DNA of 64,000 bases from Hysterangium stoloniferum (Eukaryota; Basidiomycota; Agaricomycetes; Hysterangiales; Hysterangiaceae), in the NCBI GenBank assembly GCA_015178975.1, contig WHVD01000251.1:1-64000 (forward strand). Direction: 5' to 3'. The notes under the pieces are model-generated. The model was not told the origin of the DNA. It searched no databases and saw only the letters and a program-made list of their open reading frames with translations. Below are positions 4 to 41,362 of this stretch, one piece after another; the first letter of the stretch is position 1, and each line of letters opens with the position of its first letter. The position numbers were made by a program, and so were the translations under genes.

Positions 4-1478
4 GAAAAGTTACATCAAGATATACTATCGGCAATTCCATTAGACCCAGTCACCAAAGCACACCTCGATAACCCGTCCGACCCGATCAACCCCGGTGGTC
101 ATTAGACTCACAAGGTTTCATTCGACTTGACAATCGCATTTATGTACCGGATTCCGACACCCTTCGGCTGCGAATCCTACAACATAAGCACGACCACCCA
201 ATCTCAGGACATTTCGGCCTCAATAAGACCCTCTCACTCATTAGAAGAGAATATACATGGCCCGGCATCCGAGATTTTGTTAAGCACTATTGTAAATCCT
301 GTACTACATGTTTACGCTCTAAATCACAGCGACACAAACCATATGGCCTACTCAAACAATTACCGATACCGGAAAAACCCTGGAACTCGATTTCTATGGA
401 TTTTATCGAGCACCTACCGGCATCCGAAGGTCACACAGCAATCCTAGTTGTTGTGGATCGGCTCTCAAAGCAAAGTATTTTCATTCCAACATATGACACG
501 ATAACATCTGTACAGTTAGCTGAATTATTCGTTACCCATGTATTTTCCAAGCATGGCATTCCGTCGCATGTCACATCCGATCGCGGATCCGAGTTTGTCT
601 CTCACTTCTTTAGGTCACTCGGAAAAGCACTAGACATGAAGTTACATTTCACTTCAGGCTATCACCCGGAAGGCGATGGGCAAACCGAACGCATGAATCA
701 AACCTTGGAGCAATACATCCGTGTCTATTGCAACTATCAACAAGACAATTGGAAATCACTACTACCGCTGGCCGAATTCGCATACAACAATGCACCGAAT
801 GCCACTACTGGCATTTCGCCTTTCTTCGCAAACAAAGGCTACAACCCCAACATCGCAATCCACCCGGAACGCGATCTCGCATCCGCCCGTGCTCAAGACT
901 TTGTTACAAACCTCGACGAGCTACATCAAGAACTTCGTAAAACTATCGCAATGGCTCAAGAACGATACCAACGGTCTGCGGATAAAAACCGACTTCCACC
1001 TCCTGATTTCAAGATCGGAGACCGAGTATTCGTTAAAGCCGAGTTTTTCCGAACTACTAGACCTTCTAAGAAGCTCTCTGAAAAATATTTAGGTCCTTTT
1101 GAAGTTATAGCACAAGCCGGCACGCTTTCATGGACGCTTCGGCTCCCCGACAACATGCGTGCAGTGCACCCGGTATTTCATGTATCTATGTTAGAACCTT
1201 GTGTTCCTAACAATATACCGGATCGCATACAACCACCACCTCCACCCGTGATTATTGATGGGGAACCCGAATTCGAGATATCAGAAATCCTAGACTCAAA
1301 AATCGACAATCGCCGACGCTCATGCAAATTACTTTATTTGGTCAAATGGGCTGGCTATGAAGGAACAGATGAAGAAACTTCATGGATCCTAGCTACAGAG
1401 CTCGGTAATGCCTCGGAAATCGTTTTAGGGTTTCACCAAGCTTATCCGAACAAACCCGGTCCTCTCAATTCCTTATAA
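4..1478 (+). CDS. Pol C-terminal part: integrase plus chromodomain (5' partial, one frameshift)
   Basis: Translation gives the gypsy integrase: the HHCC zinc-binding module (HDHPISGH, then CKSCTTC near 289-312), a core with catalytic Asp residues in VVVDR and TSDRGSEF and the Glu of QTERMNQTLEQY, then a GPF-type C-terminal module (EKYLGPFEV). A chromodomain follows (EFEISEILDSKID to YLVKWAGYEGTDEETSW, about 1270-1390), marking the element as a chromovirus. The first 80 bases are in another frame. Comparison with the copy at 26270 suggests one lost base near 84; from there the frame is open to TAA at 1476-1478. The enzyme would insert element cDNA, with the chromodomain guiding it to chromatin. 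Confidence 0.9.
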
Positions 1479-1579: not shown

Positions 1580-2514
1580 CTAATTTTCTCCCTCTACAAC
1601 TTCTCCCTCCTCTCCGACCTCCGAACCCTCCTCCGCACCGACAGCCACCGATACCACACCACCGACCTTCTCCGAAACCCCAATTTCATGCCCACCGCAA
1701 CTCGAGACTTCCAAATACTGCTCAAGTTGACCACCGAGAGACTCGATAACACTGGTCTGTTTCTCCAGCCCGACGCCCAAGAGTCGCAATTGCTCAGTTA
1801 TGAGCCCTTGTTGTCGCAACATCTCATATCGGTACCGGCTCGTCTCCGAGAAGTAGGTCCGCATGAGGCGGTTTTGCTCTTCTAGAGCATCGGCCTGTCG
1901 CTCCTGGAATGAGCCATCGGCCCCCGGGAAAACACACCCAAGCTTCTGATCAGCGCACTCTTGACAAGTGCGGCCCTGACCAGTGGTCCGGGGATGACAG
2001 GTTCGACCCCGTTTCGTGCACCGATTGCACTTGGGGTCATTTTCGGGCCCCGCCTTGGGGGCCTGCTTTTGTTTCTATAGAAAAAAAAAAAAAAAATTAT
2101 TTAGGAAGTTTTTATTTTAGGAAACCGAACCCACCTTGGGGCTCGACGGCCCCGGTGCATCCTCCTCGTCCTCCTCTCCCTCTTCGTCATCGGACTCCGA
2201 AGGCGTTACAGCCTTGCGCTAACAGATATTGTCAGTAAGGTTCGCAAAAGACACCAGAGCCGACTCACTTTTCCCTCCCGTTTCTTTTTCGCCGCCTCCT
2301 CCCGTGCCCGATCGGCCTCCTGCTGCTTGTTCTTTGCAAGCACTGCTTCCCAGTGCTTGCGCGCAGCCTCTTCTGCCGCCTGTTTCTTTTCCTCGGCCTC
2401 GATGGCCGCCAACTCCTCCTTCTCTTTCCGCTCCTCCTCTTCACGCGCTTTTTTCTTCTGCTCGAGTATACGCCGATGCTCTTTCGCGTTCGCCGTACCA
2501 CTCGGCGCCGACAT
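1580..2514 (-). CDS. Opposite-strand retrotransposon gene: coiled coil plus Zn2Cys6-like protein, three exons
   Basis: Exons are 2514-2269, 2218-2135 and 2074-1580 (minus strand), with GT-AG introns of 50 and 60 nt that both fall between codons. They join to a 274-residue frame without stops. Residues about 10-80 are a Lys/Glu/Ala-rich coiled coil, about 88-105 an acidic run (SDDEEGEEDEED). Residues 126-157 carry C-x2-C-x6-C-x10-C-x2-C-x6-C, the spacing of fungal Zn(II)2Cys6 clusters (CNRC at the first pair, CQEC at the fourth and fifth Cys). The tail is Gln/Glu-rich. The gene converges on pol, ending 102 bp past the pol stop. Homologous exons and splice sites recur at 11440-12793, 27744-28674 and 40926-41362. 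A DNA- or RNA-binding regulator is an inference; the function is unknown. Confidence 0.75.
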
Positions 2515-2728
2515 GGGCGCAACTGTTAACCTAACCGGGAAGGGCTTTGACCCCGAGCCTATGGTCATGGTGGTTAGAGGAAGGGAAGTGGAATTTCAAG
2601 CGCCAGGAACTCTCAAACTTTTATATGCAAACTTTTGCCGAGTCACATGATGTTTTGACACACCCAGCCGTACCCGACAAGTTTTTACGTACGGGATCTA
2701 GATTTTCGGCCTCCTTGGGATTTCGGCC
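2515..2728. other. Non-coding leader between the opposite-strand gene and the 3' LTR
   Basis: I see no gene here. The stretch holds the 5' leader of the opposite-strand gene and ends at the polypurine tract. A homologous, CpG-depleted version occurs at 11201-11440 next to another family A LTR. Confidence 0.5.
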
Positions 2729-2742
2729 AAAAGGGGAGATAC
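2729..2742 (+). promoter_or_regulatory. Polypurine tract of element 1
   Basis: AAAAGGGGAGATAC lies immediately before the TGTTAC start of the LTR, where plus-strand DNA synthesis is primed in LTR retrotransposons. The complementary version (GTATCCCCCC) adjoins the element 3 LTR at 11189, and GTACCCTCCC adjoins the LTR at 40840. Confidence 0.8.
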
Positions 2743-3452
2743 TGTTACGACCGTGTCGCAACCCTATCGGCCCCGAGGTTATCGCCACTTGTCAACGTTT
2801 CAAGTCATCCTCTCGGAAACCATCGGCCCCGAAGCTGACGAATGTTTCGCGAAGATCAAACTCCATTTACGCCCACGTCAAATAACTCGTATTGTCTGGT
2901 CAAAACTTTGATACGTCCCCTTTATTATGTTGATCCGTTCAATCTTATGTTTCGCATATGTCTATCTATATTTGTAGTCCTCGAACCATTTCCTTTTATC
3001 GTAATCCCGCTCTCGGTTATCATCGGCCTCCGAACTAATCATAAACTTCCCGTTCCTAGTCAAGCTTATTGTTAATACCGTGTTCCGCCCTTCTCCCCAT
3101 TAGTATTTTCCAGACGCCTGTTACTTGTATATGAACCCGCTGTAATTGTAGTTACTAGACAATCAGAATATCGACTCAGAATACCCTCATACACCTGTAT
3201 CAGTCTCATACTAAGACTTCCCCCATCCGCCTTCGCGTGCGCTCACCCACTCCTGGCCCCGACCCCTTGGCCCGACGCCCGACTTGTCCTTCGATTCCGA
3301 TCGGTATCACGCCGAAAGGTACTCACTAGGACTAGTCTTCGCCCGCCCGAAATTTAAGGACATCCTGCGGATATTTGCGAGGGCGCAGCCCATAAGCTGA
3401 AGCCAAGTCCTTCCGATCGGTCCCTGTCGGCCACTGACATTAGTTCTTAACA
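2743..3452 (+). repeat. 3' LTR of element 1 (family A, 710 bp)
   Basis: Starts TGTTACGACC and ends TTCTTAACA. It is nearly identical to the solo LTR at 52254-52971 and homologous to CpG-depleted LTRs at 10410, 35675, 37373, 51971 and 53713. It carries the block GCAGCCCATAAGCTGAAGCC near its 3' end, a motif shared by all LTR families in the window. Confidence 0.95.
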
Positions 3453-6400
3453 AAGGGATTTCCAGTTGTCCTGTTGATAATTGCAATAGATGCGGAGGTA
3501 TTGTTCCAATGTTTGATTCACATGTTCCATTTGTCCATCACCGTCCGGGTGATATCCCGAGGTGAAGTGTAGTTTCATGTTGAGGGCTTTTCCGAGAGCC
3601 TGGAAGAAGCGGGAGACGAACTTGGAGCCTCGATCGGAGGTTACGTGAGATGGAACTCCGTGTTTGGAAAATACGTGAATAATGAAAAGTTCCGCTAATT
3701 GTAAGGACGTGATTGTATCATGAGTGGGTATGAAAATGCCTTGTTTCGAGAATCGATCCACAACAACTAGAATGGATGTAAAGCCTTTGGAAGTCGGGAG
3801 TTGTTCGATGAAATCCATGCAAATTGAGTTCCAGGGTTTTTCTGGTATCGGAAGTTGCTTGAGAAGGCCGTACGGCTTATGCCTCTGGGTTTTGGAGCGT
3901 AAGCAGGTGGTGCATGACTTACAGAACTGGGTTACGAAATCTCGGAGGTTGGGCCAAGTATATTCTCTACGGATTAAACCGAGAGTATTGTTAATGCCGT
4001 AATGTCCGGAGATTGGATGATCGTGTTTATACTGAAGTACGCGGAGTCGGAGATTGTTGGAATCTGGAACATAGATACGTCCATCGAGACGGATAAAACC
4101 TTGAGAGTCTTGTGACCATTGGGGTTGGTCTGGATTGTCAGGAACTTCTAGGTGTGGCTTGAGAGCCGGGTCGGAAGTGAGTGCGGAAAGGATATCTTGA
4201 TGTAATTGCTCAATGTCCATAATCATGACGCTACACATAATTGGATAGTAGAGGGAAGTTGCTCGGATAGATGCGGAACGTTGTTGCATTGTAAAAACTG
4301 GTTTCATATCTGGTTTTCCACCAAGATGTCTGGGTCGGAAACGGATAATCATATTGAAAGCAGAGAGGAATTCAGACCAGTGGGCCTGCCGGCGGGTTAA
4401 AAGTTTAGTGGTAGAAAAATATTTGAGATTTTTGTGATCGGTAACAATGTCAACGGGAGTTGTGGAACCTTCGAGATAATGGCGCCAATGTTTGAAAGCT
4501 TCGAAAATTGCCAAAAGTTCCTTATCATGAACGTCGTAGTTGAGTTCGGACACTTTCAGTGCCCGAGAAAGAAATGCAACCGGATGAATTTCACCATCGG
4601 AATCTTGAATGGAAAGAATCGCGGCAATTGCATAATCGGAAGCATCGGTTTCCACAATAATCGGAACATCAGGTTTCCAATGGGAAAGAATCGGGGCAGA
4701 AGTGAAAGCATTTTTTAAAGTCTGGAAGGCGGAGCGGCATTTGTTGTCAAAGACCCATGGTTGAGTTTTATGGGTAAGACGAGTAAGCAGTACTGTAATA
4801 TCCGAGTAGTTCCGAATAAAATGATGGTAAAAGTTGGCGAAACCTAAAAATGACTGAATATCCTTGACTTTCCGTGGTTTGGGCCAATCACGGACAACTT
4901 GAACCTTGGTTTCATCCATACGGAGACCATCAGGTCCAATAATGAAACCTAAGTATTCAATAGAATCCATGTCAAAGTAGCATTTCTTACCGTTGGCGAA
5001 AAGACCATTTTTACAGAGTCTTCGGAAGACTTCACGGACTTGTTCATCGTGGAGAGCGGGATCCTCGGAAAATACCAAAATGTTGTCCAAATAGACTATG
5101 ACACATATGTCAAGCATGTCGGAAAATATATCATTAACAAAACGTTGAAAAGCGGAAGGGGTGTTGGTAAGGCCGAACGGCATAACCAACCATTCAAAGG
5201 ATCCATAGTGAGTTCGAAAAGCGGTTTTCCATTCATCACCCTCGGCAATTCGGACCAAATGATAGGCATGTTTGAGGTCTATTTTGGTGTAAATCCGAGC
5301 TTTCTGTGGGGCATCGAGTAAATCGGTAATGAGTGGAAGTGGATACTTATCTTTCCGTGTGATGGAATTTAATCCTCTGAAATCGACACAGAGTCGAAGG
5401 GAGCCATCCTTCTTTCGGACGAAAAGGATGGGTGCTCCATATGAAGACTTTGAGGGACGGATAAAACCTATCGACAGATGTTCATCCAGGAACTCCCGAA
5501 TAGACGAAAGTTCTGATTGGGATAACGGGTAAATAGGTCCTAACGGAGGGTTTGAACTGGGCTCAATATCGATTTTTAAGTCGTAAGGCCTATGTGGTGC
5601 AAGCCTGTCAGCTTTTTGCTTACTGAAAATGTCTGCAAAATCATGGTATTTTTCAGGAACACCTTCCAGGTCAGCTTTTAGCTCGGATAATTCTGGAGTC
5701 GCAAAACATCTAGATGCTTCATCAACATTTAAGCTGATCGAAAAGCACTGTGAACCATCCAGTTTACTCGCCCTAAAAAATGCCGAAGCGTTGATGAGAG
5801 AGATTTTTGGAGGCACGGAGGTTTCAGTAGAAGCCGGAGGTGCCGTAAATGCCAAAAAGGCGGTGGCCGGAAAAGACGCTGCAGGAGGAACCGAAGTGTC
5901 AGGAATGTGGAAATTAATACTGCCCAATACCCAGTCAATCAACGGATTATATCGGGTGAGCCAGTTGTATCCAAGAACTACCAAACAGCTAGAGTCCAAC
6001 TGTGTTATGAAAAAAGTAACCATCTGGGATGTTCCACAAGGGAACCGGATAGACATGTTGCAGGCTTGGGTAATTGCCGTATTGCTAGTGCCGTCAAACA
6101 GATGCAAGGAAATTGCGGGAACAGAACAGAGTTTCAGATTATGTTTCAAGGCACAGTTGGTATCTACAAAACAGTGTGTGGAGCCGGAATCTATCAGAGC
6201 TTGGAACACTAAATTTCCAAGAAAGTCAGAAACGAGTTTTACAAATAATGAATTGGGATTAGAGAGAGCGGACGCATTGAGATGGATAACCTCAGAAACA
6301 CGGAGAGAGTCAATGCAACCCTCTGTCCATGCAGATTCCGGAGGGTTGCTTACTCTTTTTCGACTCCATGGCTGGTTTTTCCTTAGACATTGTAGTCGTA

Positions 6401-6713
6401 GTGGAAGTTGCCGCGCGAGCCTTGGAAGAGTTAGATTTAACAGTACAGTTGGAGACCTTGTGTCCGCCTTTCCCGCAGAAAAGGCAGCGGTCATTGTCCA
6501 TATGTCGTTGTTTCTCCTTCGGGGTGAGTTTACCGTCGGTACCCAACAAATGTCGGGTTTGTCGGAAGTTGACTGTTTTTCCTTGTTGGATTTCTTGTCT
6601 TTCTTCCGGTCGGAGGTTGATTTGCCAGTATTCGTGCCAGAGTTGCTGGTGTTATTGCCTGAGTTATTGCTGGAAGACTTGCTCGTCGACGCCTTATTCT
6701 GAGAACGTTCCAT
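3453..6713 (-). pseudogene. Pol polyprotein of element 2: nucleocapsid tail, protease, RT, RNase H, integrase (truncated)
   Basis: Long frame from the minus ATG at 6713. A Ser/Asn/Lys-rich segment leads to a CCHC knuckle (CLFCGKGGHKVSNC) that is in another frame, so two compensating shifts flank about 6555-6320. Then follow protease (ALIDSGSTHCFVD), RT ([18 protein letters not shown], and YLDN where YLDD is usual), RNase H (VETDASDYA, ELLAIFEAF, VTDHKNLKYF), an HHCC module and the integrase core up to DNWKSL. About 70 nt between RNase H and the linker are missing in frame compared with the copy at 26030. The broken end, the shifts and the Asn in the RT site suggest it is inactive, although most of the frame is open. 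Confidence 0.85.
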
Positions 6714-6740
6714 TGGATTCTCTTGAGAGACCTCGGCTTT

Positions 6741-11188: not shown

Positions 11189-11439
11189 GTATCCCCCCAT
11201 TTGGCCAAAATCCCAAGGAGGCTGAAATCTAGATCTTGTACATAAAACTTGTCGGGTATGGGTGGTGTGTCAAGACATCATGTACCTGGTAAAAATTTAC
11301 ATATAAAAACTTGAGGGGTGCTGGCACTTGAGATTTTGACTCTTTCCTTTCAATCTCAATGACCATGGGTTCAGGATCAAGACCTTTCCCATCCAGGCCA
11401 ACTCTTTCCCATGTATTGAGTCCGAGTGGACCCCTGAAC

Positions 11440-12793
11440 ACACAAGAGTGTCGATGACTTCTTGAAGAAAAGAAGAAGGTGCATGAGGAGGAGGAATGTA
11501 GGGAGAGGGAAGAGCTGAAAGTGATAGAGGCAGAGGAGAAAATGTTGGCAGAGGAGGAGGCTGCTCACAAACATTGGGAAGCTAAGCTTGTGAAGAAGAA
11601 GCAGAGGGAGGGCAATGGGATGCAAGAAGAGGAGGTGAAAAAGAAGTGGGAGGGTAAAGTAAGTTGGGAATTCCTCATACTTGTAACGTCACTGACATCC
11701 TTTTACAGTGCAAGGCAGCAACACCATCAGCTTCTGATGATGAAGAGGATGGGGAGGATGAGGGAGAAGTGCTGGGGCCTCTAAGGTATGTTTGGACTTC
11801 TATTATTTAGTTTTTTTTTTGATTTCTAATTTTTTTGGTTATAGAAACAAAAACAGGCCCCCAAGGTGGGGCCTGAAAACAACCCAAAGTGTGAAGAGTC
11901 ATGTAAGTTCGAAAGTATATTGACCTTTTTGGTGCGATATTAGAGAGAGTGAGAGAGAGAGAGCACAAGATGATGCAGGAGTTGACAAGTGCAATGGATC
12001 AAGTGGAGGCCTTGACTGTTACAGTTCAAGGCCAGAAGTGTTAGTCAGCTCAGATAATGCTACCTATGTGGTAGCTGACATGTTACCCTGATCACCACTC
12101 ACTGTAGACCTAGTTTATGTCTTACGAGTGGTGGTGCTTGGGTAAAAAGTGTCTGTTTCCTTTGGCACTGAGTGTGCCCACAAGTATACACAGGGCTTCA
12201 AACTAATGAAATGGTGCAATAGTCAAAGAATGTAAAGGATAGGAAGATATGAATAAAATATGTAAGATATAAATGAAATGAAAGAAGTATTTTACTACAG
12301 TGAAACCATGGTAAAAGCATACTCCTCATACAAAATGCAATCAATGCACTAACTGAGGTTGGATTTGCCATCCATGGGCCAATGGTCGGGGCCACACATG
12401 CCAAAAGTGTGCCAATCAATTTCCAGAGACTGATGGGAACAGGCCATACCAAGAGTGGCAGACAGACACATTGGAGGAGCAAAATCGACTCCTGTGCACA
12501 TATTTCTTGGAAACAAGTTGGTTCTGACACGAACAACTGCGACAACAAGTGCTATTCACTGAACAGTTGTGATTATTGGGCTTGGGGCTGGAGAAACAGA
12601 CCAGCATCATAGAGTATTTCAGAGGACAACTCAAACAGTATTTAGAGGTGTTGAGAGTTCTGATGAGGCTGGGCCAGGGGTTGAGACATTGGAGAAGGTC
12701 AGTGAGAAGGAGGTGTCAGTGGCCATCAGTGTAGGGGAAATCTTAGAAGCTGGGGAAGAAGGGGAGGTTGTAGAGGAGACTTTAGATAGTTGA
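11440..12793 (+). pseudogene. Opposite-strand coiled coil/Zn2Cys6 gene of element 3 (degenerate)
   Basis: Same exon plan as 1580-2514. The exon 1 coiled coil (EEECREREELKVIEAEEK, AHKHWEAKL) ends at 11658 before GTAAGT; exon 2 (11709-11785) encodes the acidic run SASDDEEDGEDEGE; exon 3 starts at 11845 with KQKQAPKVGPENNPK and loses its match near 11890. About 450 bp of unrelated DNA follows. Matching sequence resumes near 12390 (CQKCANQ, GLEKQTSIIEYFRGQL) and runs to a stop near 12793. Frameshifts and the insertion make it a pseudogene. Confidence 0.65.
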
Positions 12794-12874
12794 AATATAA
12801 TGGTTTTAAACAAAACAAAACAAAAATGAAGAACATAAGACATAGTCAGAAAGGGGTCAGAGACTGCATGAAAT

Positions 12875-14935
12875 CTATAGAGAGTCTAAGGGACTGGGTT
12901 TGTTCAGGTATGCTTGATGAAAACCTAAGACAATTTCTGATGCATTGCTGAGCTCTGTAGCTAGTAGGATCCATGAAGTTTCTTCATCTGTACCTTCATA
13001 GCCAGCCCATTTGATCAAATAAAGTAACTTGCATGAGTGTCGGTGATTGTTGATCTTGGAGTCTAGGATTTCCAATATCTCGAATTTGGGTTCTCTGTCA
13101 ATAATCATGGGTGGTGGTGGTGGTTGTATGTGATCCAGTATCTTGTTAGCAACATGTGGTTCTAACATAGATACATGAAATACTGGGTGCACTGCACACA
13201 TGTTGTTGGGAAGCTGAAGAGTCCATGAAAGCATGCCAGCTTGTACTATAACTTCAAAAGGACCTAAATATTTTTCAGAGAGCTTCTTGGAAGGTCTAGT
13301 GGTTTGGAAAAACTCAGCTTTAATGAATACTCGGTCTCTGATATTAAAGTCAGGAGGTAGAAGTCAATTCTTATCCACAGACCATTGGTATTGTTCTTGG
13401 GCCATTGCAATAGTTTTTCAAAGTTCTTGATGTAGCTCATCAAAGTTTGTAATGAAGTCTTGAGCATGGGTGGATGCGAGATCACATTCCAGGTGGATTG
13501 CAATATTGGGGTTGTAGCCTTTGTTTGTGAAGAAAGGTGAAATGCCAGTAGTGGCATTCAGTGCGTTGTTATATGTGAATTTGGCTAGTGGTAGTAGTGA
13601 TTTCCAATTATCTTGTTGATAGTTACAATAGACATGAATGTACTGTTCCAAGGTTTGATTCATGTGTTTGGTTTGGCCATCACCTTCCAGGTGATAGCCC
13701 AAAGTGAAGTGTAATTTCATGTCTAGTGCTTTTCCGAGTGACCTAAAAAAATGAGAGACAAACTTGATCTGCAATCGGATGTGACATGCGACGGAATGCC
13801 ATGCTTGGAACATACATGGGTGGCAAATAGTTCAGCTAACTGTACAGATGTTATTGTGTTATATGTTGGAATGAAAATACTTTGCTTTGTGAGCCTATCC
13901 ACAACAACTAGGATTGCTGTATGACCTTCAGATGCTGGTAGGTGCTCGATGAAATCCATAGAAATTGAGTTCCAGGGTTTTTCTGGTGTTGGTAACTGTT
14001 TGAGTAGGCCATATGGTTTGTGTCACTGTGATTTAGAGCATAAACAGGTTGTACATGATTTTCAGTAGTGCTTGGTGAAATCTTGGATGCTGGGCCATGC
14101 ACATATATTCTCTTCTAATGAGTGCAAAAGTCTTGTTGAGGCCAAAATGTCCTGAGATCAGGTGGTCATGCTTATGTTGTAGAATTCTCAGCCAAAGGGT
14201 GTCAGAATCTGGTATATAGATGCAGTCATCAAGTCTAATGAAACCCTGTGAGTCTAGTGACCATCAGGGTTGATCAGGGTTGGATGGGTTATTGAGGTGT
14301 GCTTTGGTGACTGGGTCTAATGGAATTGCCAATAGTATGTCTTGATGTAACTTTTTGGTGTCCATAAGGATAACACTTCGCAAGACTGGGTGAATGAGGT
14401 AAGTGGCTTGGATAGATGTGGACAGTTGTTCGGATGAAAACACAGGCTTAAAGTTATGTGGGTTAACTGGTGTAGTCACTACTCCTCTCTTTAGGATAGA
14501 CATCCCATCATCTAGTCATAGTGTCAGGTTTTCCACCAAGGCAGCCGGGACAGAAGCAGATTACCATATTAAAAGTGGAAAGGTATTCAGACCAGCAAGC
14601 TTGCTGGTCAAGAGTTTAGTGGTTGAAAAGTAAACCAAATTTTTGTGGTCAGTTATAACATCTATCAGAGATGCTGATCCTTCCAGATAGTGTTGCCATG
14701 CCTTGAAAGCTTCAAATATCATGAGTAGTTCCTTGTCATGAACATCGTAGTTGAGTTTAGGTGCTGAGAAGGTGTGAGACAAGAAGGCTACTGGGTGGAC
14801 TTCACTGTCGGTGTCCAGAATGGACAATATTGCAGCAAGTATATAATCCAAGGTGTCAGTTTCCACAATGAGTTGAACATCAGGCTTCCAGTGTGACAAA
14901 ATAGGGGCAGATGTAAACACACTTTTCAATTCTCA
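12875..14935 (-). pseudogene. Integrase, chromodomain and RNase H of element 3
   Basis: Minus-strand frames give the chromodomain (KFEILEILDSKIN, YLIKWAGYEGTDEETSW; stop near 12875), the GPF module, integrase core (MDFIEHLPASEGH, VVVDRLTKQ, KHMNQTLEQYIHVYCNYQQDNWKSLLPL), linker and RNase H (VETDTLDYILAAILSI, ELLMIFEAF, VITDHKNLVYFSTTKLL). Several frameshifts and stops; the TSDRGS motif reads TSDCRS. Continues beyond the LTR inserted at 14982. Confidence 0.85.
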
Positions 14936-22421: not shown

Positions 22422-23990
22422 ATGCCACTAAGAAGAAAAGCACCCATATAGGAATCATTACCTGGACCTTCGACTCTTCATTCCCCACTTACTTTGTATA
22501 CCAGCCAGACACTCAAACCAGCCAGACACTCAAACCAGCCAGACACTCAAACCAGCCAGACACCACGGATGAACCCCATATCAAAGAAGTCCTGGAAAAC
22601 CCAGATGAATCTGACCATGAGGATGAGTCCATGGCCCCTGACAAGGGGAAAGGTGTCGAAAATTCCGCATCTAATGATCGACTGCCACTTGTGGATCCCA
22701 CTTCCGAGTTGTTAGCAATCACTTTAGAAAGATTGATGAAAGGTGTCAAAAATTCCCCATCTAATGATCGACTGCCACTTGTGGATCCCACTTCCGAGTT
22801 GTTAGCAATCACTTTAGAAAGATTGATGAAAGGTGTCGAAAATTCCCCATCTAATGATCGACTGCCACTTGTGGATCCCACTTCCGAGTTGTTAGCAATC
22901 ACTTTGGAAAGATTGATGAAAGGTGTCGAAAATTCCCCATCTAATGATTGACTGCCACTTGTGGATCCCACTTCCAAGTTGTTAGCAATCACTTTAGAAA
23001 GATTGATGAATCACATGCTCAGAGAAGGCAAAAAGAAGGATCTGGAACCTCTGTGGTCAAGAGTCAATGCTCTGGAACCCTTCACAGGTTCCAATCCCAA
23101 CAAACTTTCTACCTTCCTCATGCAATGTCACTTTAATTTCCATGATTGATCCTCTGCATTCTCCATGGACTCCCAAAAAGTCAATTACGCACTCTCATAC
23201 CTCTTGGGATCTGCATTGAAATGGTTCAAACCAGCTTTTCTGAGGAAGAGCAGTTCTGGCTTGAAGATTGGAATGCATTTGTTGAGGAGCTAGAAACAAA
23301 TTTTGGCCCTTATGACCCAACCAGAGAAGCCGAGAATAGCCTTACCAATCTTCATACGAAGGACAGCCAGTGCATCACAGACTATATTGTCCAATTCAAT
23401 AATCTTGCAGCTCATTGTCAGTGGGGCGATCCTGCTCTCCACCACCAATTCTATGCTGGTCTGGCATCCTATCTTAAGGACAAAGTCTCAAAAGGAAAAG
23501 ATGGCAAACCAAAAACACTGTCCTGTATGCACCTCAAGGCTCAAAATATGGATGCACATTATTGGGAATGTTGCGCAGAAGCTGCCCACGAGACCTCTGT
23601 GGACAAGGTCAACAAGTCCATGGCCAATAAGCCCAACAACAACACCCCATCTACCAGCAACCAAAACTCCATGCACTCTGATCAGAAGAACAATAAAAAG
23701 TCTTCCAACAACAACAACAACAACAACAACAAAGGTCAGCAGTCTGGCAAGCAAACTGGAAAACCTGACCTTACAGGCAAGCTCAGACCTGATGGCAAAC
23801 TTACCCCACAGGAAAGGCAGTGGCACATGGACAACATCCTTTGTATCTTGTGCAGAAAACCTGGTCATTGAGTTCTGGAATGTCCATTGGTGAAAGCAAA
23901 CTCTGCAAAAGGTCATACAGCCAAGACTTCCTCCACAGACTCCCCTCCCCATTGAAGGACAAACTGGCTTCTGACCCAAAAAAAGAGTAA
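22422..23990 (+). pseudogene. gag of element 4
   Basis: Starts MPLRRKAP 33 bp after the LTR. An N-terminal region with four 30-residue repeats leads to the Gag core (FLMQCHFNFHD, WLEDWNAFVEELETNFGPYD, YIVQFNNLAAHCQWGD, FYAGLASYLKDKV), an Asn run from AAC repeats (23706-23733), and a knuckle reading CILCRKPGH then TGA. Here the codons after YWE are sense codons (TGT TGC), unlike elements 2 and 3. Stops at 22948-22950 and 23147-23149 fit CpG decay. Confidence 0.85.
22651..23010 (+). repeat. Four tandem 90-bp repeats within gag
   Basis: Units start at 22651, 22741, 22831 and 22921 and encode KGVENSPSNDRLPLVDP... of 30 residues. Element 6 has only one copy (60357-60446). The units differ by a few bases; the fourth has CGA changed to TGA. 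Confidence 0.95.
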
Positions 23991-26358: not shown

Positions 26359-27315
26359 GAAATACTGGGTGTACCGCATGCATGCTATCTGGAAGCCGTA
26401 GGGTCCATGAAACTGAACCTACTTGTGCTATTAACTCAAATGGACCTAAATATTTTTCAGCAAGTTTCTTTGATGGATGGGTAGTCCAGAAGAATTGGGC
26501 TTTGACAAAAACATGATTACCAATCTTGAAGTTGGGTGGTGGAATCTGGTTTTTGTCCACTGAATGCTGATATTGCTCTTGGCAGATTTTATTACAATCC
26601 ACAGTTCCTCATGGAGCTTGTGGGGGTCCATGACAAACTCTTGAGCATGGGCAGAGGCAAGATTCCATTCTGGGTGTACTGTAATATTTAGATTGTACCC
26701 TTTATTTGCAAAGAATGGTGAAATGCCAGTAGTGGCTGAGGGTGCATTGTTGTAAGCAAATTCTGCAAGTCGTAACAAGGATTTCCAATTGTCCTGTTGA
26801 TAGTTGCAATATGTATACATGGAGGTATTGTTCCAATGTTTGATTGACACCTTCAGTTTGTCCATTGGCTTCTGGGTGGTATCTGGACATGAAGTGTAAT
26901 TTCATGTCCAAGGATTTCCTGAGGGATCTAAAGAAGTGAGATACAAACTCTGATCCTCAATCAGAAGTTACGTGGGATGGAACTCTATGCTTGGAAAATA
27001 TGTTGATAATAAAAAGTTCTGCTAACTGCACAGATGTGATTGTATCATGTGTAGGGGTGAAAATACCTTGTTTTGAGAATCTGTCAACAATGACTAGAAT
27101 GGTGGAAAAGCCTTTGGAGTCCAGTAGGTGTTCAATGAAATCCATAGAGATGGAGTTCCATGGGTATTCTGATACCGGAAGTTGTTTCAGAAGGCCATAT
27201 GGTTTGTGATGCTGTTCTTTAGAGTGTGGACAAGTAATGCAAGATTTACAATAGTGCTTAATGAAGTCTCGGAGTCCAGGCCAAGTATATTCTCTTTTTA
27301 TCATTGACAGAGTCT
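26359..27315 (-). pseudogene. Inverted integrase block of element 4
   Basis: On the minus strand this encodes the HHCC end and integrase core: NKTLSMIKREYTWPGLRDF, CKSCITCPHSK, MDFIEHLLDSKGF, VIVDRFSKQGIF, QTLEQYLHV, EFAYNNAPSATTGISPFFA and up to SWTLRLPDSMHAVHPVF. It lies in place between RNase H and chromodomain of the same element, both on plus. Short pieces at both borders (about 45 and 80 bp by comparison with 38190-39000) are missing. Confidence 0.88.
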
Positions 27316-27546
27316 TGTTAAACCAACAGAGAACCCGAGTTTGAAATCTCACAAATTTTAGACTCAAAAATAGATAAGTGTTGGTGCACTTGTAAACTGC
27401 TTTACTTGGTCAAGTGGGTGGGTTACGAAGGCACTGATGAAACGACATCATGGATTTTGGCCACGGAACTCAGTAATGTCACAGAGATCATCATTGACTT
27501 TCACACAGCTTACCCACTCAAACCTGGACCACTATCCTCTCTCTAA
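27316..27546 (+). pseudogene. Chromodomain end of element 4 pol
   Basis: Plus-strand frame EPEFEISQILDSKID, LLYLVKWVGYEGTDETTSW, then GPLSSL and TAA at 27544-27546. It continues the orientation of 23999-26358. Confidence 0.85.
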
Positions 27547-27743: not shown

Positions 27744-28674
27744 TCAATCTACTTTTATAGGGCTATTCTTTTGCCCAACTTCAGTTAACTCTTGTTGGGC
27801 TTCTACCAGCTCCCTAGGGACTCTGTCCTCATCCTCCTCAGGCTCCTTGGAACTCCCAACCTGGGGCTCCAAATACACGTACCCACCGTACTCTGCCAAG
27901 AATGCCCAGAACTCCCTGGAGCATCTCCACCATGGTCCTCTGTATCCGGTTGCTCTCTTCAAGCAACTGGTTTTGGGCCTCTATGTATTCCCACAGCTAT
28001 CCACCCCAAAATGTCCTCCAGGCCCCCGGGCCTGTCTGAGCACCCCATTTCCTATGCCATGGACCCTGTGGGCTTGTGAACCAGTGAGCACCTCGCTTTG
28101 AGGTGCACACATGGCCAACAGCCTGGTCCCCACCCAGACTCAGTAAAATTCTGTGTTCCAGTTGTTACAGCTGGAATACCACAGGTCGTTCTTTGCCTCC
28201 AGGTGGACTGGAGCCATTTTCCTTGTTTTCTGTTAGTGTGGTCAGTACCTGGACCCAAGACTTACCTTTTGGGGGCTCTCTAGCTCCCCTCAGACTCCAA
28301 CTCAGCTTCCACTGCTTTGTGCTAAAAAAGCAAAGTTAGTAAAGTCAAATGTGAGAATCATTGGGACTTACCTTTCCCATGGCAACCATGGACCTCCCTG
28401 CAGCTGCCTTGGCATGTTCTGCAGCAACCCATGCTGCCTCCTCATCTCTCTTTCTCTGCTCCTCAGCCTCCTTCTCTGCAGCCAGTGCTGCCTGGTACTC
28501 CCTCTCCAAGTCCTCCTCAGCCTCTTTGGCTTTCTTCTCTGCTTCCTCCCTTTGTCAATGCTGCTCCCCCCACTGCACCAAGATTTGAGCAGCAGTGAGT
28601 GGAGCCCAATATGGGGAGCCCATGGAAGGTTCAGCACTGGGGATTAGCCTGCAAGGCATCAGTTTTGGACCCAT
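27744..28674 (-). pseudogene. Opposite-strand coiled coil/Zn2Cys6 gene of element 4
   Basis: Exons about 28674-28372, 28321-28266 and 28229-27744, with GT-AG introns of 50 and 36 nt. Exon 1 encodes MGPKLMPCRL and a Glu/Ala/Lys coiled coil with one TGA that looks like a decayed CGA. Exon 2 has a one-base deletion compared with 40926-40982. Exon 3 keeps part of the Cys cluster (SSC, then GCWPC and RC in another frame) and the tail FLAEYGGYVYLEPQV to PIKVD. Same place and orientation relative to pol as in element 1. Decayed. Confidence 0.65.
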
Positions 28675-37157: not shown

Positions 37158-39203
37158 AAAAGAGGGGAGCAATGACTAGTAAACCCACATAACTTGAAAC
37201 CCATTTTCATGAATCAGCAGCATACCACATCAGTCCACATGACTTTTCTCATCCATCCCATCATCCATGGAATTATCATTATGGACATTAAGAAACTACA
37301 TCAAGATATTCTATCAGCAATTCTGCTAGATCTGATAACCAAGGCACACCTTGACAATCCTGTGGACCCCAGTGTTAAGAACTGAAAACTGACTAATGTC
37401 GGTGGACCGATGGGGACTGATCAGAAGGACTTGACTTCAGCTTATGTGCTGCACCCTTGCAGTTATCCGTCGGGTGTCCTTAAATTTCAGGCGGGTGAAG
37501 ACTAGTCCTAACAAATACCTCTCGGTGAAACTACCGATCGGAATCGAGGGATAAGCTGAGTGTCCGGCCAAGGGGTTGGGGACCGAGAGGGGGCGAGCGC
37601 ATGCAAAGACGGAAAGTGAAATATTTAGTATGAGATTTCTATAGGTGTAAGAGGGTATTCTGAGTCGATATTCTGATTGCCTAGTAACTACAACTACAGT
37701 GGGTTCATATACAAATATCAGGCATCTAAAAAAAACACTAACTAGGAGAAGAGCAGAAAGTGGTATTGACAAATAAGCTTGACTAGGAATTGGAAGGTTA
37801 TGATTAGTTCGGAGGCCATACATTAACTGAGAGTGGGATTACGAGAAAAGGAAAGAGTCCGAGAGTTACAAGTATTTTTAGACATGTGTGAAACATAGAG
37901 TAGAACGGATCATCATAATGGAAAGGGATGTATCAGAGTTTAACCAGATAGTATGAGTATATTTTGATGGGGGTGTAAATGGAGTTTGATCACTGCAAAA
38001 GCATACATCAGCGTTGGGAAACCGATGGTTTCCGATGCGAGGACTTGAGCAATGACTTGAATCGTTGATAGGTGGTGGGGACTGTTGGGTTGCGACACAG
38101 TCATAACACCCAGTCAACCCTGGTGATCTCTTGATCAGCATGATTTCATTAGACTTGACAGTTGCATATATGTATCAGACTCCAACAGCCTCCACCTCAG
38201 GATCCTCCAGTACAAACATGACCATCCACTCTCAGGACATTTTGGGTTCAACAAAACTCTATCATTGATAAGAAGAGAATACACTTGGCCTGGACTCTGA
38301 GATTTCATTAAGCACTATTGTAAATCTTGCATTCCTTGTCCACACTCCAAATCACAGTGTCACAAGCCATACGGCCTTCTGAAACAACTCCCAGTACTGA
38401 AACACCTGTGGAATTCCATCTCTATGGATTTCATTGAACACCTACTGGACTCCAAAGGCTTTTCCACCATTCTAGTCATTGTTGACAGATTCTCAAAACA
38501 AGGTATCTTCATCCCTACACATAATACCATCACATCCATGCAGTTAGTAGAACTTTTTATTATTAATGTATTTTCCACGCACAGAGTTCCATCCAATGTA
38601 ACTTCCGATCAAGGATCAGAGTTTGTATCTCACTTCTTTAGATCCTTCAGGAAATCCTTGGACATGAAGTTACACTTCACGTTCAGACATCACCCAGAAG
38701 GCAATGGACAAACCGAGCATGTCAATCAGACATTGGAACAATATCTCCATGTATATTGCAACTACCAACAGGACAATTGGAAATCCTTGTTACCACTTGC
38801 AGAATTTGCTTACAACAATGCACCCTCAGCCACTACTGGTGTTTCCCTATTCTTTGCAAATAAAGGGTACAATCCAAATATTATGGTACACCCAGAATGG
38901 AATCATGTCTCTATACTAGAACCATGTACTGCTAACACTATCCCAGACTGCATGCAATCTCCACCCCCTCTGGTCATTATTGATGGAGAACCCAAGTTTG
39001 AAATCTCTCAAATTTTTGACTCAAAAATAGATAAGCGTCAATGCACTTGTAAACTGCTTTACTTGGTCAAGTGGGTGGGTTACAAGGGCACAGATGGAGA
39101 GACATCATGGATTTTGGCTATGGAACTTGGTAACACCACAGAGATTGTCACTGACTTTCACACAGCTTACCCATTCAACCCTGGACCACTATCCTCTCTC
39201 TAG
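37158..39203 (+). pseudogene. pol fragment: linker, integrase and chromodomain (split by a solo LTR, with a deletion)
   Basis: Linker MKPIFMNQQHTTSVH to HLDNPVDPS, a family A LTR at 37373-38108, then HPLSGHFGFNKTLSLIRREYTWPG, CKSCIPC and a frame from 38424: MDFIEHLLDSKGF, VIVDRFSKQGIF, TSDQGSEFVSHFF, QTLEQYLHVYCNYQQDNWKSLL. After VHPEWN it jumps to HVSILEPC, so about 75 residues including the GPF module are deleted. The chromodomain (KFEISQIFDSKID, WVGYKGTDGETSW) ends GPLSSL-TAG. Nothing upstream of the linker remains. Confidence 0.85.
37373..38108 (-). repeat. Solo LTR, family A (736 bp)
   Basis: On plus TGTTAAGAACTG to CAGTCATAACA, with the duplication CCCAG at 37368-37372 and 38109-38113. 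It interrupts the pol linker exactly. Confidence 0.95.
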
Positions 39204-39406: not shown

Positions 39407-39598
39407 CATTCTATATTTATAGGGCTATGCTTCTGTCCACTTTCATTAAACTCCTTTTGGAGTTCAACCAGCTCCTTGGGGACCCTGTCCTCATCCCTGA
39501 GCTCCTTGGAACTCCTGACCTGGGGCTCTGTATATATATACCTGCCATACTCTGCCAAGAACCCCCAGAATTCCCTGTGGAGTCCCTGGAGAGTCTCC
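39407..39598 (-). pseudogene. 3' end of the opposite-strand gene (family B type)
   Basis: The minus-strand frame REFWGFLAEYGRYIYTEPQV, then DEDRVPKELVELQKEFNESG and SPINIE, matches the tail at 27744-27960. It lies about 200 bp past the pol stop at 39203, the expected place. Cut at 39598. Confidence 0.7.
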
Positions 39599-39821
39599 TG
39601 TTAGAGTATGATATTACAGCTCTTACATAGTCTATGATGTTCCCTATATTTTTCTGATATTTGTAGTATTTTTCCCAGCACTGTAGGTGCAGTATTGAGT
39701 GAGTTACCTAGTAAGGTAAGTGATGTGTAGGTGCTTAGATAAGCACCCTGTAGCATACTCCGCTGTGGGTGTGGGAAAGTCTCCTTAATGTTTACTTTCC
39801 TCACACTCACAGGGAGGATAA
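39599..39821. other. Unassigned segment starting TGTTAGAG
   Basis: Begins abruptly at TGTTAGAGTATGATA and ends where element X begins. It could be part of an LTR, but no partner was found. Confidence 0.3.
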
Positions 39822-40925: not shown

Positions 40926-41362
40926 TGCAAAGTGGTAGAGGTCAAGTCAGAGTTTGAGGGGGAGCTGGAGAGCCCTCAAAAGGCAAGTAGCAGGTCCACA
41001 GGAGTGTCTGAGACTGACCAAGTCAACAGAAGGCAAGGAAGATGGCTCCAGTCTGCTTGGAAGCAAGAAATGACCTGTGGTATTCCAGTTGTAATGACCA
41101 GAACACAGACTGTTACTGGAAGTCCAGGTGGGGACCAGGCTGTTGGCCATGTGCACACCTCAAAGTGAGGTGCTCACTGGTTCACAAGCCCATGGGGTCC
41201 ATGGCACAGGAAGTGAATGGCTCAGCAGACAGGCCTGGGGCCTTGGAGGAAGTTTTGGGGCAAATAGCCATGGGCATAGAGGCCCAGAACTGGTTGCTTG
41301 AAGAGAGCAACTGGGTGCAGGGCACCATGGTGGAGATGTTGAAACAGTTGAATAACTCTTGA
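40926..41362 (+). pseudogene. Opposite-strand coiled coil/Zn2Cys6 gene of element 5 (exons 2 and 3)
   Basis: Exon 2, 40926-40982 (CKVVEVKSEFEGELESPQK), follows TTTTTAG; exon 3, 41030-41362, follows CAACAG and is open to TGA. Cysteines are spaced SSC-x6-C-x9-C-x2-C-x6-C, with Tyr where the first Cys of the family A copy stands. The tail has a Leu/Glu-rich segment (LLEESNWVQGTMVEMLKQL). Exon 1 is almost wholly deleted, leaving only its GGGAAG-GTATGT border near 40895. The donor after exon 2 reads GC instead of GT. Confidence 0.65.

Follow-up and report, generated by a model that had tools for sequence, protein, structure and literature searches.

The sequence analysed here, called the window, comprises the first 64,000 nucleotides of contig WHVD01000251.1 (assembly GCA_015178975.1) from Hysterangium stoloniferum, a member of the Agaricomycetes with a genome of 111 Mb that is described as an ectomycorrhizal fungus (PMC7550596). 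It opens, at the contig start, within a Ty3/Gypsy retrotransposon, element 1, which carries a three-exon accessory gene on the strand opposite to its pol gene. The initial annotation of the window had proposed that this gene encodes a regulator of the element itself, a reading that we retain below in graded form. The pol end (72..1478, plus strand), whose 5' part is lost at the contig start, comprises the H2C2 and rve domains of an integrase, a Tf2-like SH3 domain and a chromodomain, which is the chromovirus order. The rve, H2C2 and SH3 domains score above their Pfam cut-offs, and the Chromo match (E-value 1.8e-5) falls marginally below its own, at 25.0 bits against 25.1. About 100 bp separate pol from the opposite-strand gene. 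Beyond the gene lie its upstream region, which measures 174 bp from ATG 2568 (228 bp from ATG 2514), a polypurine tract read by eye (2729..2738, plus strand) and the 3' long terminal repeat (LTR; TGTTACG..TTAACA, about 2743..3452, plus strand), with borders placed by eye and at the boundary to the interrupted element 2. The gene is antisense to pol and is flanked by pol and the 3' LTR, the LTR side having been examined in the window copy.

On the minus strand, exon 1 (2269..2568, or 2269..2514 if read from ATG 2514) encodes a charged segment rich in glutamate, lysine and alanine, and exon 2 (2135..2218), delimited by translation and alignment of copies, encodes an acidic one. Exon 3 (1580..2074), recognized by translation, codon-level selection, a frame control and a structure model, encodes a six-cysteine cluster, a long predicted helix and an acidic tail that ends with the stop codon at 1580. 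The exons are separated by GT..AG introns in phase 0, of 50 nucleotides (2219..2268, GTGAGT..GTTAG) and 60 nucleotides (2075..2134, GTGGGT..TATAG). As the initial annotation had it, the segments 2514-2269, 2218-2135 and 2074-1580 join in phase into 274 residues plus the stop codon, and the joined protein bears the pattern C-x2-C-x6-C-x10-C-x2-C-x6-C. The in-frame ATG 2568, 57 bp 3' of a TATA box, would give a product of 292 residues instead. Among 60 loci of the genome, including the window copy, that form the set named family A, the region upstream of the gene could be extracted in 56 (L020, L051, L067 and L068 were dropped, as exon 1 was unmatched from its start). In all 56, ATGACCAT is found at ATG 2568, and it is in frame in 54, indels having shifted it in L038 and L065. 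Because of this conservation and the TATA box, ATG 2568 is the likelier start and the 292-residue product is preferred.

Matches to the gene abound in the genome far beyond chance. Exon 3 of family A yielded at least 150 scored matches (the best 150 of 565 candidates), and so did the corresponding exon of family B, a second family that was first noticed adjoining family A in locus L054 (the best 150 of 1288 candidates). A third variant, A2, whose exon 3 is 64% identical to that of family A, was found beside pol copies that seemingly lacked the gene. The gene stands opposite the best pol match in 59 of the 60 family-A loci, the last one, L067, having no pol match in the 1.8 kb examined. When matches to the reverse transcriptase (RT) were paired with matches to the gene, at least 54 of the best 150 RT matches found a partner. 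Ten unpaired copies were inspected, L072 among them; five match an A2 gene in each of its three exons, one runs into the end of its contig, and in four the gene has internal deletions. The deletions of these four (L072, L083, L086 and L079) look like separate events because their borders differ, and a single amplified deletion derivative was rejected. Beside the family-A element with the deleted accessory gene in L072 lies an open frame (1936-2600) that seems to resemble a Tc1/mariner transposase.

Two further loci with a pol end that looks chromodomain-like by eye, L070 and L071, hold no open reading frame (ORF) of at least 60 residues with the cysteine pattern in about 0.8 and 1.0 kb behind pol, so that the accessory gene may be limited to certain element lineages. 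Outside this genome, a family-A query of a protein database found no relatives among 48 candidates, in a search that depends on shared five-residue words. A family-B query of the same database returned two partial H. stoloniferum models among 8000 scored sequences, and a pol control query gave 7523 matches. Since gene sets frequently have the genes of such elements masked, and given the five-residue-word search, absence from other species is not established.

The splice borders are among the most constant features of the gene. In intron 1 of family A, GT and AG are kept in 60 of 60 loci, with GTGAGT and GTAAGT alternating at the donor; in intron 2, GT is kept in all 60 and AG in 59, the exception (L059) perhaps reflecting an alignment shift, and indels occur within the intron. 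The introns thus drift between copies while their borders stay. Both introns of family B are GT..AG in eight of eight loci, at corresponding phase-0 positions, and the borders are common to families A and B and to one A2 copy. In a public H. stoloniferum gene model, P0002, the predicted junction of exons 1 and 2 falls at the position seen here, as judged by eye. The introns can presumably persist in the element since the sense genomic RNA presents to the spliceosome only their complement. As they cannot be removed from that RNA, they provide a built-in marker of antisense expression.

Upstream of the gene, and in its orientation, two short motifs are conserved. Of the 56 family-A loci, 52 have a TATA box (2619..2625, minus strand) that matches TATA[AT]A[AG] and the other four have near variants; the TCATGTGA box (2643..2650, minus strand) is exact in 55. 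Across families A, A2 and B, the TATA box precedes the first ATG by 57-60 bp; the TCATGTGA box, also common to the three, precedes the TATA box by 25 bp, start to start, in A and A2 and by 39 bp in B (with A2 represented by one copy and B by two). Eight diverged family-A copies differ from the window copy by 1% and 6% in the two 10-bp stretches that contain TCATGTGA and by 11% in the TATA stretch, whereas immediately 3' of the TATA box the difference reaches 41%; the region adjoining the polypurine tract is as conserved as the boxes. These promoter-like motif matches may represent a putative antisense promoter of the gene's own. Half-sites of the type CGG..CCG in the LTRs (6 in LTR A versus 2.2 after shuffling, 11 versus 3.3 in part of LTR B) had a single-base shuffle as their sole control and were left out of the argument.

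The pattern of substitution among copies is that of a protein-coding sequence. The 60 family-A loci differ mainly in their introns and at third codon positions: across the 188 pairs that have diverged most, the difference in exon 3 amounts to 13% at codon position 1, 17% at position 2 and 43% at position 3. The pooled ratio of nonsynonymous to synonymous change (dN/dS) of exon 3 falls with rising synonymous distance, from 0.47 through 0.26 to 0.14 (1045, 177 and 383 pairs). The excess of synonymous change for which the initial annotation had proposed to look is therefore present, with a dN/dS of 0.13-0.14 in the most diverged pairs. All of the 60 family-A loci and all seven family-B rows retain the six cysteines. 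Stop-free reading in the gene frame is retained by exon 3 in 49 and by exon 1 in 52 of the 60 family-A loci. In the eight family-B loci, dN/dS is 0.26, 0.16 and 0.24 for exons 1, 2 and 3; exons 2 and 3 are free of stops in all eight, exon 1 has one stop in three, and the frame of L078 is broken.

Several open frames exist on both strands in exons 1 and 2, as would be expected if the exons were chance open frames or a misread sense-strand gene. Exon 3 argues otherwise: each of its five other frames is open in none of the 60 family-A loci, the mirror frame has 5.3 stops per copy, and over all pairs dN/dS is lowest in the gene frame (0.25, against 0.39 in the mirror frame and 0.93-1.23 in the remaining ones). 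With the splice borders shared by A, B and an A2 copy, this six-frame control makes chance or sense-strand coding hardly conceivable, and that explanation was rejected. An antisense RNA that is functional in itself, by forming double-stranded RNA with the genomic RNA, would accord with the complementarity of the transcript to the 3' part of that RNA, and such a role has been proposed for plant antisense ORFs (PMC7264820). The invariant cysteines and the selection on codons, seen in each of the three exons, show that the protein matters; a function in RNA only is disfavoured on this ground and appears quite improbable. The spliced, opposite-strand, element-borne gene that the initial annotation described in two families is thus, judging from purifying selection on codons, the frame control and the common splice borders, almost certainly a real coding gene.

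How strongly the gene is constrained relative to pol was assessed in 53 loci with a pol end, with pairs whose pol had a proportion of nonsynonymous differences (pN) above 0.3 dropped and the pairs being non-independent. By rising distance, dN/dS in exon 3 and pol was 0.45 and 0.19, 0.26 and 0.17, and 0.131 and 0.136 (843, 157 and 245 pairs). Exon 3 is conserved like another element protein in the most diverged class and more weakly than pol in the two closer ones. Judging by the near-equal ratios of the most diverged class, long-term constraint on the gene matches that on pol, and between close copies it is the weaker of the two.

Families A and B are evidently homologous. They have the same exon plan, corresponding intron positions and the same upstream layout, and hhalign, in one comparison over the cysteine region, gave a probability of 92 with an E-value of 5e-7. 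Exon 3 of B is 31% identical to that of A (over about 90 residues) and 33% identical to that of A2, against 81% identity of the pol ends of A and B, on which basis the gene seems to evolve faster than pol, yet under clear constraint. Within family A, the same 245 most diverged pairs have a synonymous difference of 0.51 in exon 3 versus 0.20 in pol, and A2 copies with the RT score of family A carry a gene that is only 64% identical to that of A in exon 3. This unequal depth of divergence suggests an exchange of the 3' region between element lineages (loci L009-L066 and L080-L087).

Retroviral accessory proteins often counter host defence, and an antisense-encoded protein directed at host silencing (RNA interference, DNA methylation or heterochromatin), rather than at the LTR, could diverge between families far more than pol and be less constrained than pol between close copies, as is found here. 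An arms race should, however, raise dN/dS, which is low between diverged copies, and no motif indicates a silencing partner, so that we regard a counter-defence protein as unlikely.

We turn to the features of the protein that bear on the regulator reading. In Zn(2)-Cys(6) clusters the cysteines obey the rule C-x2-C-x6-C-x(5-16)-C-x2-C-x(6-8)-C, and the spacing found here conforms to it, with a middle spacer of x10 in family A and x9 in family B. Sub-threshold matches to the Pfam family Zn_clus (PF00172) recur in both families, in four of ten and five of seven members. Directly after the cluster, AlphaFold predicts from the single sequence a helix at residues 55-126 of exon 3, with a predicted local distance difference test (pLDDT) value mostly of 85-96, and a second model places it at 55-124. 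A helix directly behind the cysteine cluster is the layout of GAL4-type dimers. The protein thus resembles Zn(2)-Cys(6) transcription factors in its cysteine spacing and in the helix behind the cluster; it differs from them in its Pfam scores below the cut-off and in being carried by a retrotransposon.

Several observations weigh against a DNA-binding regulator. Zn_clus stays below its gathering score of 21, the isolated domains reaching 14.5 and 13.4 bits and the best E-value being 0.034, and the best-matching stretch covers one half-cluster only. In both AlphaFold models, pLDDT is about 50 over the cysteine cluster. No zinc-cluster match was obtained in PDB searches, by sequence profile or by VIA-align, in which one chain was compared; a scan of NCBIfam with the protein gave nothing of use. 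A glycine occupies the position at which GAL4-type proteins carry a DNA-contacting basic residue. On the same side stand the deletions in four of the ten further copies and the weaker constraint than pol among closer copies. The label "Zn2Cys6-like" of the initial annotation accordingly holds for the spacing, the six conserved cysteines and the recurrent Zn_clus matches; it is not borne out by the Pfam cut-off or by the modelled confidence over the cluster. The cysteine cluster and charged coiled coils would equally suit RNA or chromatin binding, and a nucleic-acid-binding cofactor of integration, packaging or nuclear import, acting with Gag, integrase or complementary DNA, would also sit well with a gene that has pol as its neighbour in 59 of the 60 family-A loci. 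With splicing and promoter-like motifs of its own on the antisense strand, such a cofactor would be uncoupled from the dosage of gag-pol, and we consider it improbable, to about the same degree as counter-defence.

The window holds further copies of the gene, and the two LTR families named by the initial annotation correspond to family A (element 3) and family B (elements 4 and 5). Its statement that similar exons occur in all three elements applies to the first two, which are decayed but keep the same splice borders; in element 5 there are only pieces. The family-A copy of element 3 (11419..12775, plus strand) lies opposite its pol (12878-14287, minus strand). The family-B copy of element 4 (27747..28674, minus strand), with TATA and TCATGTGA boxes upstream, lies opposite a chromodomain (27331-27543, plus strand), and element 4 is rearranged, an integrase on the minus strand standing side by side with the chromodomain end on the plus strand (26360-27543). 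Element 5 retains an exon 3 remnant of family B (39409..39705, minus strand) opposite pol (38103-39200, plus strand) and a detached exon 2 and exon 3 fragment of the same family (40929..41350, plus strand). In element 3 (11419-14287) and other decayed copies, many arginine positions read as tryptophan, cysteine or stop, as judged by eye and uncounted, which would fit C-to-T change by repeat-directed or methylation-driven mutation. Element 2 (3447-6740), a minus-strand Gypsy pol, has element 1 nested within its integrase in the opposite orientation. A tandem array at 22558-23097 has a spacing of 90 bases and five overlapping copies of 63-98% identity.

Plant elements are known to carry antisense ORFs in the interval from pol to the 3' LTR, under the name aORF-3R, with gene23 of Grande, RIRE2, TRP28 of Retand and PvRetro13 as examples whose functions are described as unknown; the Grande protein is reported to be nuclear, with its own promoter, and that of Retand is predicted to bind DNA (PMC7264820; PMC11963269). 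Boty-like elements of Botrytis and Sclerotinia carry an antisense gene, brtn, as cited in two papers (PMC7264820; PMC8365987). The view of the initial annotation that no described family has this layout was accordingly too strong. The plant ORFs encode other domains (TRP28, Smc), and the word "intron" is absent from the main text of both papers that describe them. Brtn is also the extra antisense gene of a fungal Gypsy element, but its hosts are ascomycetes, and it is likened here by description only, the citing passages mentioning no zinc cluster. The source study for brtn is reportedly that of Zhao et al. 2011. A figure legend in the Tcn1 survey of fungal and plant chromoviruses names an extra ORF of unknown function (PMC2864245). 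From titles and the beginnings of abstracts, in a body of literature with few subscription journals, no antisense gene of a retrotransposon could be recognized as spliced or as encoding a zinc cluster. What appears new relative to the known antisense ORFs, in that we have not found them in print, are the splicing and the zinc-cluster-like motif.

The closest functional parallel may be HBZ of human T-cell leukemia virus type 1 (HTLV-1), described as a spliced antisense nuclear protein of the basic leucine zipper (bZIP) type that lowers LTR transcription (PMC10186651). HBZ and the APH proteins share with the present gene a spliced antisense origin near the 3' LTR; they belong to retroviruses and contain bZIP rather than a zinc cluster, and homology is not claimed. 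The HBZ promoter lies inside the 3' LTR, whereas the motifs found here lie between the LTR and the gene. We propose that the accessory gene of this chromodomain Ty3/Gypsy retrotransposon would be transcribed from its own antisense promoter, between the gene and the 3' LTR, and that the transcript would be spliced twice by the host. The product would be a dimeric nuclear protein consisting of a charged coiled coil, the acidic exon 2 segment, the zinc-cluster-like domain and a second coiled coil, and it would bind element DNA, in the LTR or the 3' internal region, in trans. In a manner comparable to HBZ in HTLV-1, this binding would tune transcription of the element itself. The sequences show the structure of the gene, the constancy of its splice borders, selection on the protein and conserved motifs upstream; expression, dimerization, DNA binding, nuclear location and target are what we infer, and the parts are not equally secure. 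A nuclear DNA-binding protein seems fairly probable, and an action on the element's own transcription falls slightly short of evenly balanced. The whole proposal, an element-encoded dimeric nuclear regulator of its own transcription, is about evenly balanced. More tentative is its fullest form, a convergent HBZ, in which a spliced antisense zinc-cluster transcription factor would set the balance between silence and burst of its own family and the introns would survive retrotransposition only by facing the other way.

Antisense genes have been recorded in LTR retrotransposons for a long time with no function assigned to them, and the authors of one of the plant studies call for an examination of antisense and spliced transcripts (PMC7264820). 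A single genome here offers hundreds of copies of such a gene in three variants, with a cysteine pattern of the fungal DNA-binding type, promoter-like motifs and two introns. Spliced antisense reads would prove its expression at once, which makes the idea of a regulator carried by the element itself directly testable.
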